A stretch of 64,000 nucleotides of DNA from Proteinivorax tanatarense. Its GTDB lineage: Bacteria > Bacillota > Proteinivoracia > Proteinivoracales > Proteinivoracaceae. The notes under the pieces are model-generated. The model was not told where the DNA came from. It was given only the letters and a program-made list of their open reading frames with translations, and ran no database searches. This document shows positions 15,849 through 18,955 of the stretch, one piece after another; positions within the stretch are counted from its first letter, which is position 1, and the number at the start of each line of letters is the position of its first letter. The position numbers and the translations under genes were made by a program. The stretch lies in NCBI RefSeq assembly GCF_040267685.1, contig NZ_CP158367.1, positions 1,302,001-1,366,000 on the forward strand, given 5' to 3'.

Positions 15849-15880
15849 AGCATATGCTTATACCAAAGGGGGGAAGTATA

Positions 15881-16759
15881 ATGACCCTTTACCTAGATTT
15901 AACACTAATTTTAAATGGCATAGTTTGTTGGATTGCCTTTAGCATAACAGAATTTGTTTTAAATTTTCCAGCTAATAAAGGTAGAAAATTGCTAGCATGT
16001 GTATTAGGAAGCTTCTATGTAATTTTATACCTTGCGTGGTATAGTTTAGCAGACATCCTTTTATTGAAGCTTAGTTTTGTTATGCTAACGGTACTTGTTT
16101 GTTTTGGATACTATTCATTTAAAAGGTTGTTAGAACAAACAGCTTGCGTTATAGTTTTTACAGCATCTTTTTCGGGTCTCTTGTTTATGGTAATGACTAG
16201 TTTAAGCAACGGCAAAATGGCGATGCCCAATCCATATATTGATTTAAAAAACTTTTTATATTTAACGATTTTTTTAGCCTCTTTTGTAATAATTCCTCCC
16301 TTTTTTAGAGTATTTATATTAAATATAAAGAGATTAACTACTAGTGAAAAAATGACATATGAATTGGAGGTGTGGTTAAATAACAAAACAATTAAAATAA
16401 ATGGGTTCGTTGATACAGGAAATAGTTTAGTCGATCCGATAAGTAATTTACCGGTAATAATAGTTGATAGACAAGTTTTAAAAGGGAAATTGTCATCAAA
16501 ATGGGACAATTGGCTAGAAAGTGGGAAAAGTTGGAATGTGCCAGATTGTGATCTAAAGATTAGGTATGTTCCCGTAAATACTATAGCTGGCACATCTCTC
16601 ATGATAATATTTAAACCACAAAAGGTGTTTCTAGTGGTAGGGGATAAAAAAAGAAAAGTTAAAGCTTTGGTGGGAGTAAATCCTCAAAATGACAAAATGG
16701 TGCCAGGTTTTGAAGCATTGATACATCCAAGCATTTTATGCAATATAGATAACTTATAG
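15881..16759 (+). CDS. spoIIGA: Sigma-E processing peptidase SpoIIGA
   Basis: SpoIIGA is a membrane aspartic protease that cleaves the pro-sequence of SigE in the mother cell after signalling from the forespore. The N-terminal half has about five membrane segments. The C-terminal half holds the retropepsin-like motif GFVDTGN with D178 as the predicted catalytic Asp, and later AGTSLMIIFKP and KALVGVNP. The frame is open from 15854, but ATG 15881 has the AAGGGGGGAAG site, giving 292 residues starting MTLYLDLTLILNG. It is directly followed by its substrate gene sigE. Confidence 0.94.
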   Translation: MTLYLDLTLILNGIVCWIAFSITEFVLNFPANKGRKLLACVLGSFYVILYLAWYSLADILLLKLSFVMLTVLVCFGYYSFKRLLEQTACVIVFTASFSGLLFMVMTSLSNGKMAMPNPYIDLKNFLYLTIFLASFVIIPPFFRVFILNIKRLTTSEKMTYELEVWLNNKTIKINGFVDTGNSLVDPISNLPVIIVDRQVLKGKLSSKWDNWLESGKSWNVPDCDLKIRYVPVNTIAGTSLMIIFKPQKVFLVVGDKKRKVKALVGVNPQNDKMVPGFEALIHPSILCNIDNL

Positions 16760-16788: not shown

Positions 16789-17520
16789 ATGTCAAAGATT
16801 TATAGAATTTTTAAGTTGAGATGGAGGCTATTTCTTACTGGTATATATGCCAAGCTTGGGCTATTAAAGAATTATGTCCACTTTGTAGGAAGTACAGAAG
16901 CTTTACCTCCACCTCTTTCAAAAGATGAAGAAAGTTATTTAATGGAGAAGTTGAAAAAAGGTGATGAAGCTGTTAAACAACTATTAATTGAACATAATCT
17001 AAGATTAGTTGTATACATAGGGAGAAAATTTGAAAACACAGGCATAAATATAGAAGATTTAGTATCTATTGGAACCATTGGACTAATAAAAGCGGTAAAC
17101 ACTTTTGATCCTGAAAAGAAAATTAAGTTAGCTACTTATGCATCAAAGTGTATCGAAAATGAAATTTTAATGTATTTAAGAAGGAACAATAAAATAAAGT
17201 CTGAAGTTTCTTTTGATGAACCATTAAATATAGATTGGGATGGGAATGAATTGCTATTGTCCGATGTTCTAGGAACAGAAGCAGATTTAGTTCATAAAGA
17301 TTTAGAGCAAGAAGTAAACCGTGAACTGCTCTCCAAAGCACTAGTCAAGTTAAACAAAAGAGAACAAAAAATAATGATTTTAAGGTTTGGTTTAGCTGAC
17401 GGGCTAATTAGAACACAGAAAGATGTAGCCCAGATTTTAGGGATATCTCAATCTTATATTTCTAGGCTAGAAAAAAAGATTATATCAAGATTACAAAAAG
17501 AAATAAAAAAAATGGAATGA
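16789..17520 (+). CDS. sigE: RNA polymerase sporulation sigma factor SigE (pro-SigE)
   Basis: SigE is the first mother-cell sigma factor of sporulation. The 243-residue protein has an N-terminal pro-sequence (about 1-30, rich in Arg/Lys and aromatic residues) before the conserved [15 protein letters not shown], matching the membrane-bound pro-SigE layout. Region 2 is seen as [22 protein letters not shown] and [15 protein letters not shown]; region 4 has an HTH near [21 protein letters not shown]. It is probably co-transcribed with spoIIGA. Confidence 0.97.
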
Positions 17521-17550
17521 GGCGAATTATGTTCGTCTCTTTTTTTTTTT
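17519..17550 (+). terminator. Terminator after sigE
   Basis: GAGGCGAA (17519-17526) pairs with TTCGTCTC (17532-17539, one G-U pair), followed by about 11 T residues. It overlaps the sigE stop codon. Confidence 0.85.
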
Positions 17551-17639: not shown

Positions 17640-17668
17640 GCATATTTGAAAGAGGTAGGGTAATAAAT
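17640..17668 (+). promoter_or_regulatory. Candidate SigF/SigG-type promoter upstream of sigG
   Basis: GCATA (17640-17644) fits the forespore sigma -35 box. After 14 bases GGTAATAAAT (17659-17668) resembles the SigF -10 box with one mismatch and spacing one or two bases short. sigG is known to be transcribed by SigF and by SigG itself. Confidence 0.4.
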
Positions 17669-17700
17669 AAATATATCAACTAACTTAGGAGGACTTGACC

Positions 17701-18480
17701 GTGATAAATAAAGTAGAGATTTGTGGAGTAAATACAGCTAAATTGCCAGTGCTAAAAAGTGCAGAAATGAAAGAGTTATTTATCCGGTTAAAGGGAGGGG
17801 AAAAAGAAGCCCGTGAGCAGTTAGTAAACTGCAACTTACGGCTTGTGTTAAGTGTTATACAGCGCTTCAACAATAGAGGGGAAAGTGTGGATGATCTATT
17901 TCAAGTCGGATGTATTGGGCTAATGAAAGCTATCGATAATTTTGATTTAAGTCAAAATGTGAAGTTTTCTACTTATGCTGTTCCTATGATTATTGGGGAG
18001 ATAAGAAGGTATCTTAGAGATAATAATCCTATTAGAGTAAGCCGTTCCCTTAGGGACATTGCGTATAAAGCTTTACAAGTAAGAGATAAGTTAACTAATG
18101 AAAACGATAGAGAGCCTACAGTTAGTGAAATAGCTCTAGAGTTAGACATTAAAAGAGAGGAAGTTGTTTTTGCGTTAGATGCTATTCAAGAACCAGTTTC
18201 ACTTTTTGAGCCAATTTATCATGATGGTGGTGAGCCAATCTTTGTTATGGATCAAATAAAAGATGATGGGGAGAAAGATAGCAGTTGGTTGCAAGGAATT
18301 GCAGTGAGCGAAGCTTTAACTCGGCTTAATGAAAGAGAAAAAACAATTTTGACTTTAAGGTTTTTTGAAGGCAAAACTCAAATGGAGGTTGCTGATGAGA
18401 TTGGAATCTCACAGGCTCAAGTATCACGGCTGGAAAAGGTTGCATTAGGTCATCTTGAAAAATATGTTAAGGAGGATTAA
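17701..18480 (+). CDS. sigG: RNA polymerase sporulation sigma factor SigG
   Basis: SigG is the late forespore sigma factor. The N-terminus INKVEICGVNTAKLPVLK is diagnostic for the SigG family, whose usual start is xNKVEICGVDTSKLPVLK. Region 2 (NLRLVLSVIQRF, DDLFQVGCIGLMKAIDNFD), region 3 (REPTVSEIALEL) and a region 4 HTH (TQMEVADEIGISQAQVSRLEK) are present. The frame includes TTG 17695, but that is only 2 bases after AGGAGG; GTG 17701, 8 bases after, is the better start and gives 259 residues. A mini-gene follows at once. Confidence 0.97.
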   Translation: MINKVEICGVNTAKLPVLKSAEMKELFIRLKGGEKEAREQLVNCNLRLVLSVIQRFNNRGESVDDLFQVGCIGLMKAIDNFDLSQNVKFSTYAVPMIIGEIRRYLRDNNPIRVSRSLRDIAYKALQVRDKLTNENDREPTVSEIALELDIKREEVVFALDAIQEPVSLFEPIYHDGGEPIFVMDQIKDDGEKDSSWLQGIAVSEALTRLNEREKTILTLRFFEGKTQMEVADEIGISQAQVSRLEKVALGHLEKYVKED

Positions 18481-18482
18481 AA

Positions 18483-18620
18483 TTGAAGCACAAGTTGAGT
18501 TATTATGCAATTATTTTAGCAAGTATTCCCACTTTGATAAATAACATAGATGTAGTTTATGCATACAATTGTGATAACTTCTTTACTGAAATTACTCAAG
18601 TTGTAATCAAAGGTTTTTAA
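18483..18620 (+). CDS. Uncharacterised 45-residue peptide, possibly secreted
   Basis: This short frame starts at TTG 18483, 7 bases after a strong AAGGAGG site that overlaps the end of sigG, and runs 45 codons to TAA 18618-18620. A terminator follows directly, so the layout is that of a real last gene of the sigG transcript. The peptide starts with a Lys/His-containing N-terminus and a hydrophobic stretch (LSYYAIILASIPTLI, about 5-19), then VVYAYNCDNFFTEITQ. This resembles a signal peptide or a small membrane peptide. I do not recognise the family. If transcribed with sigG it would be made in the forespore (inference). The alternative is a chance frame, but the ribosome site and terminator argue against that. 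Confidence 0.6.
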   Translation: MKHKLSYYAIILASIPTLINNIDVVYAYNCDNFFTEITQVVIKGF

Positions 18621-18650
18621 CCTCAAAGTTCATGCTTTGAGGTATTTTTT
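18620..18650 (+). terminator. Terminator after the sigG transcript
   Basis: ACCTCAAAG (18620-18628) pairs perfectly with CTTTGAGGT (18635-18643), with a T run at 18645-18650. It begins at the stop codon of the 45-residue mini-gene. Confidence 0.88.
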
Positions 18651-18670
18651 GTTTTAATAATCATTTTGAG

Positions 18671-18718: not shown

Positions 18719-18955
18719 TTGCGTATATCAGATTTAAGAGATAGAGAAATAGTAAATTTAGGCGATGGCAAGGTATTAGGGCATTTTGATGATTTAGAAA
18801 TTAATCCTGATACAGGGAAAATCAAAGCGTTAATTGTAACAGGTCAAAATGGTTTTTTAGGCCTAATGGCTACAGGAAATGATTATATTATTCCATGGGA
18901 AAGAATTAAAAAAATTGGCCATGATGTTATAATAATAGATACTAGGACAGAGTAG
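18719..18955 (+). CDS. ylmC: YlmC/YmxH family sporulation protein (PRC-barrel)
   Basis: This is a 78-residue protein that is almost entirely a PRC-barrel domain (MRISDLRDREIVNLGDG..., LEINPDTGKIKALIV, YIIPWERIKKIGHDVII). It belongs to the YlmC/YmxH family of endospore formers, whose exact role is unknown. TTG 18719 follows GGGGGAGGAG. It lies between sigG and nrdR, as in other Clostridia, and is probably monocistronic. Confidence 0.88.
   Translation: MRISDLRDREIVNLGDGKVLGHFDDLEINPDTGKIKALIVTGQNGFLGLMATGNDYIIPWERIKKIGHDVIIIDTRTE

Follow-up and report, generated by a model that had tools for sequence, protein, structure and literature searches.

Positions 18483-18620 of the window (the whole 64,000-nucleotide stretch of Proteinivorax tanatarense DNA that was analysed) hold a genuine conserved gene directly behind sigG, not a chance reading frame. 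It is highly probable that the gene encodes a peptide and that it derives from SpoIIR, the forespore signal that starts gene expression in the mother cell. The reading of its role that we prefer, with moderate confidence, is that of a small exported-looking peptide, descended from the N-terminal part of a spoIIR linked to sigG, which would play a late part in the forespore by a route other than activation of SpoIIGA. A search of openly accessible papers yielded no description of a short gene behind sigG or of a shortened spoIIR.

The open reading frame lies on the forward strand, as do all features of the window given below, and comprises 45 codons from a TTG start to a TAA stop (18618-18620); its 45-aa product is (M)KHKLSYYAIILASIPTLINNIDVVYAYNCDNFFTEITQVVIKGF. 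A Shine-Dalgarno sequence, AAGGAGG (18469-18475), is located within the last codons of sigG, 7 nt 5′ of the TTG, and the same sequence is kept ahead of the TTG in a genome of the same genus. sigG itself (17695-18480, the stop ending at 18480) was identified with the NCBIfam model TIGR02850 at 494 bits against a cut-off of 457, and an alignment of the upstream region points to the GTG at 17701 as its probable true start. On the other side of the peptide gene, a Rho-independent terminator (18620-18653) with a 10-bp stem free of mismatches, a 4-nt loop and a T-run ends the sigG-peptide unit. Its stem begins at 18620, the last base of the peptide stop codon, which is thus common to both, and the same-genus genome has a nearly identical terminator sequence. 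The layout is the one described in an earlier note on this DNA, in which a TTG frame starts 7 nt past an AAGGAGG overlapping the end of sigG and its stop abuts a perfect hairpin.

The neighbours at the locus are spoIIGA, sigE, sigG, ylmC and nrdR, where sigE was assigned by sequence and gene order and nrdR by sequence. spoIIGA (15854-16759), which encodes the pro-SigE protease and thus the receptor-protease of SpoIIR signalling, matches TIGR02854 at 140 bits, under the cut-off of 209.6. The next gene downstream, ylmC/ymxH (18719-18955; TIGR02888), lies outside the unit. A terminator was predicted from the sequence between sigE and sigG (17519-17539), and a candidate SigF-like promoter (GCATA, 14 nt, GGTAATAAA; 17640-17668), assigned by its match to the consensus, stands ahead of sigG in all five genomes of the window family. 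Since these two elements precede sigG, sigG and the peptide gene probably form a transcription unit of their own, of forespore type. The sigF gene of the window genome, in the spoIIA operon (G000:C1:1178202-1178915; L072 2676-3425), encodes a diverged SigF that scores 240 bits with TIGR02885 against a cut-off of 321.

In dinucleotide shuffles of the gap between sigG and ylmC, an ORF of at least 40 aa starting no more than 15 nt from the sigG stop arose in 1.5% of cases. The doubt that this leaves about a chance ORF is removed by conservation of the frame in relatives. The same-genus genome contains a 44%-identical frame at the same position (E 2e-8), and a frame of 45-50 codons was found between sigG and the hairpin in all five window-family genomes, which represent three genera. 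The earlier note had made its proposal depend on such a conserved frame, and every family member examined has kept it. Outside close pairs the similarity is low; the residues A-Y-N-x-x-N and a final F are invariant in the five family peptides.

Judged by the residue pattern in relatives, residues 1-27 of the product (18483-18563) make up a hydrophobic leader ending in V-Y-A, a predicted signal peptidase I site. The motif YNCDNF (18564-18581), an instance of the general form [YF][NT]xxN[LF], would be the start of an 18-residue mature peptide; together with the preceding alanine the residues are A27 Y28 N29 C30 D31 N32 F33. The remainder is a family-specific tail, FTEITQVVIKGF (18582-18617), which carries the C-terminal F that is invariant in the five members.

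The window peptide gave no Pfam or NCBIfam match at E≤1, and the earlier note had recognised no family for it. A family nevertheless exists, namely the N-terminal segment of SpoIIR, whose full gene occupies the same slot in many Bacillota. In many other families a full spoIIR fills the slot behind sigG; its product starts with a leader, continues with A[YF][NT]xxNL and then enters the core at IRLHVIANSD. In Moorella, for example, the element of the full sigG-linked SpoIIR reads AYNSHNLIR. An HMM built from full SpoIIR proteins only picked out 24 of the short peptides (E<0.01) and, besides true SpoIIRs, no other ORF. Held-out peptides of the window family had HMM scores of E 0.0025-0.49 (0.011 for the window peptide), while no antisense ORF scored below 0.1. 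The most direct case is family f18, where the short gene of one genome (G026) and the N-terminus of the sigG-linked full SpoIIR of another (G266) share 23 of 44 residues (52%, 44/45 aa; E 2e-16); the latter genome carries a second, unlinked spoIIR. Because the slot is shared with full spoIIR and the short and long forms can be aligned in f18, we regard the short genes as SpoIIR N-termini that outlived the core. For the window family, the link to SpoIIR is suggested by position, architecture and the held-out HMM scores.

The motif was present in 45 of 78 sigG-linked SpoIIRs and in 1 of 51 others (Fisher p 3.5e-12). An independent-contrast test of motif against sigG-linkage did not reach significance, as it could draw on a single supported contrast (13 when all branches are counted), and with so few supported contrasts shared ancestry could be the cause of the association.

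Compared with the sigG-linked form of SpoIIR (PF09551, TIGR02837), the window peptide has the slot, the leader and the A[YF][NT]xxNL element in common, whereas it lacks the core blocks LIRLHV, DQ.LK..VRD and NWWCVLFPPLCF. As a group the peptides end before the core, at or just after its first strand, and the alignment places the invariants R52, D64, Q65, K68, NWWC and PPxC beyond their reach. With the defining core absent, the peptide was not filed as SpoIIR, and with the whole core missing it is not expected to switch on SpoIIGA in the manner of SpoIIR. It is better described as a member of a SpoIIR-derived peptide group, for which a new function is plausible but unproven. An AlphaFold2 model of a full SpoIIR (L154; 45 sequences) had a pLDDT of 83 and a pTM of 0.64 with a confident core, and in this model the motif is a coil just ahead of strand 1, before the most confident part of the core. 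A fold search of the PDB with the model returned nothing better than E 0.13; it therefore gives no mechanistic hint, and the modelled SpoIIR fold appears to be without a solved relative in the PDB.

We surveyed what follows sigG at 222 distinct loci, which were chosen partly by similarity and partly by following families with matches, so that the locus counts are not a measure of prevalence. A short gene was taken to be an ORF of at most 95 aa that immediately follows sigG and encodes a hydrophobic leader and [YF][NT]xxN[LF]; those counted have 45-95 aa. After reclassification with the HMM and the addition of one locus by hand (L094), 54 loci contained a short gene, 83 a full-length spoIIR and 85 neither. 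On control sequence the detector gave 5 matches among 2200 shuffled regions and 1 among 222 antisense ones; since the motif positions were used for detection, they are no proof by themselves. Short genes are spread over 11 coded families and the Desulfallaceae, hence at least 12 families, and are also present in unclassified bins. Named carriers include Desulfallas sp. Bu1-1 (L094) and a Desulfoscipio geothermicus MAG (L099). The state of the slot was uniform in every coded family sampled except f18, in which 11 species have short genes of 45-53 aa and one species has a full SpoIIR. One contig labelled as a Deltaproteobacteria MAG (L157) has spoIIR behind its sigG and clusters with Bacillota; it is probably mis-binned or mislabelled.

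A profile of the short peptides matched 122 of 398 whole genomes. The strong matches (E≤2e-7), which comprise short genes and full SpoIIR N-termini alike, adjoined sigG in all 46 cases with a known sigG position, as determined by comparing coordinates by hand. The window peptide shares the features of the group: it has 45 aa, starts just past the sigG stop, carries a leader (weaker than the rest) followed by A[YF][NT]xxN[LF], and its genome has a full-length spoIIR elsewhere, close to the origin.

The residue before the motif, a position not used in detection, is A in 52 of the 54 short genes, and 37 of the 54 have V or I three residues before the predicted cleavage site (-3). This pattern is consistent with a signal peptidase site and agrees with the signal-peptide-like N-terminus described in the earlier note, though no other leaders in the set are as weakly hydrophobic as those of the window genus (mean hydropathy of 1.69 and 1.26 across 14 residues). 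Targeting of the peptide to the membrane is likely. In B. subtilis, cleavage of the SpoIIR leader was never observed and other membrane domains can substitute for it (PMC13174948); ‘exported’ may for this reason mean anchored.

A full spoIIR was found at another locus in 41 of the 42 short-peptide genomes searched; none was found in the remaining one, a fragmented bin that is 90% complete (G175). In the window genome it is located at 2963355-2963726 in the order prfA-prmC-sigG2-spoIIR (prfA, prmC and the order by sequence), 4.2% of the chromosome from dnaA, while sigG lies at 42.7%. Distances from dnaA were measured in 48 Bacillota genomes that are finished or close to it, some with rounded genome lengths. 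Unlinked spoIIR lay within 17% of the chromosome from dnaA in 29 of 30 cases (median 4.8%), and sigG-linked spoIIR was origin-proximal in none of 21 (median 37.8%). Thus spoIIR has two addresses, one near the origin and one immediately after sigG, and three of the 48 genomes hold both. In all ten finished short-peptide genomes the full spoIIR is origin-proximal (0.017-0.134 from dnaA) and sigG is far away.

The sigG2 gene of the window genome (G000:C1:2963832-2964590; L071 3327-4154, minus strand) encodes a second SigG-like sigma factor, located directly upstream of the full spoIIR and behind prfA and prmC. It is 58% identical to sigG and scores over the NF006071 SigG cut-off and under that of TIGR02850. 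Comparable pairs of a SigG-like gene and spoIIR occur in families f2, f3, f9, f13, f55, f69, f70, f88 and f124. In family f31 (G151 and G359), two sigG loci and three spoIIR copies occur in one bin, possibly as a result of mixed strains rather than true paralogues.

A peptide that derives from SpoIIR might compete with SpoIIR or assist it at SpoIIGA, for example by ending or sustaining the activation of SigE. Such a partnership would have precedents, as two-protein forespore signalling is frequent (SpoIIR with SpoIIT, SpoIVB with CtpB; PMC4703394). However, the active SpoIIR of short-peptide genomes is almost always without the motif, so that the peptide and the protein it would modulate share no N-terminal element, and the B. 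subtilis SpoIIR core can activate SigE without its N-terminal domain (PMC13174948). Moreover, sigG is origin-distal, and for this reason the peptide should follow the first SigE trigger. We consider modulation of SpoIIR at SpoIIGA unlikely.

The short gene could also be a decaying remnant, left over from a spoIIR copy that was disabled and now functionless in itself, with a Shine-Dalgarno sequence, terminator and frame that merely linger. Family f18 shows clearly that a short gene can arise by truncation, the tails differ freely from one family to another, and about 40% of the sampled sigG loci are empty, which means that the short gene can be lost altogether. The substitution pattern argues against decay. 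A close pair in the window family gave dN 0.09 and dS 0.46, hence dN/dS 0.20, a sign of purifying selection, though a value from one pair only, the other pairs of the family, some of which are weakly alike, being too distant for the calculation. In the close pairs of other families dN/dS was 0.09-0.34 in all but one computable pair, the exception (0.66) having few changes. Nor would decay account for the uniform retention in every coded family apart from one member of f18, for the alanine at -1 in 52 of 54, a residue that played no part in choosing the loci, or for intact frames with a Shine-Dalgarno sequence in deeply separate families. We therefore regard a remnant as quite improbable and retention for a function of the protein itself as very likely. 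The earlier note had proposed a real protein gene, the last of the sigG unit, and the conserved frame, the dN/dS values and the position in relatives all agree with that proposal.

Very improbable is an effect at the level of mRNA, in which translation of the short frame would tune the stability or termination of sigG mRNA and the peptide would be irrelevant: the close spacing to sigG and the terminator and the tuning of B. subtilis sigG expression at several levels (PMC5942855) are in its favor, but selection acts on the amino acids and on a motif common to the full-length protein, the start of the short genes varies from -29 to +135 nt relative to sigG, and a terminator-like hairpin is close by at some but not all loci.

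For the exported-looking peptide with a late forespore role, the following course of events can be proposed. The ancestor would have had sigG followed by a full spoIIR with leader, A[YF][NT]xxNL and core domain. An origin-proximal SpoIIR would then have taken over the early trigger of SigE, that is, the switching on of SpoIIGA, after which the sigG-linked copy would have shed its core. We propose that leader and motif were kept because the N-terminal element serves something else. The peptide would be produced in the forespore together with SigG, and mainly late, since it is encoded with sigG, whose locus is late to enter the forespore and which in B. subtilis owes most of its transcription to SigG itself (PMC5942855). 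Its leader may take it through the forespore membrane or anchor it there, on the side of the intermembrane space, where the YNxxNL end could act late, as a ligand or an adaptor, on some partner that is not SpoIIGA. That the peptide acts late and not via SpoIIGA is a tentative proposal, to which we give slightly less than an even chance. More doubtful is the broader idea that fission of SpoIIR has given rise to a so far unrecognised class of peptides which signal or serve as adaptors late in the forespore; in this view the core is the early, origin-proximal SigE trigger and the YNxxNL element acts separately and later. The mode of SpoIIR signalling is itself still disputed, recent work arguing that SpoIIR acts from inside the mother cell (PMC13174948).

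Two known systems invite comparison. SpoIIT (YwmB) and CtpB each serve as the second factor from the forespore when SigE and SigK are signalled to the mother cell (PMC4703394), and their likeness to the peptide is an analogy of role alone. SpoIIT was dropped as a homologue, as this protein is YwmB and is not described as a short peptide. Exported peptides of the Phr type in Gram-positive bacteria are likewise encoded by a short ORF behind a regulator gene and consist of a leader and a short mature peptide. In contrast to these, the partner gene here encodes a sigma factor rather than a Rap/RRNPP receptor, and the sequence originates from SpoIIR. No gene for a Rap/RRNPP-type receptor is present among the locus neighbours listed above. 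One relative matches PhrA_Strep weakly and below threshold (E 0.0087, 16 bits against a cut-off of 40).

A new conserved short gene thus adjoins one of the best studied regulators of sporulation. With its two addresses, spoIIR offers a way to test, in organisms other than Bacillus, how the position of a gene relates to timing during sporulation. If our reading is right, evolution has repeatedly split the N-terminal element of SpoIIR from its core and kept both, which would mean that the N-terminal element has a job of its own.
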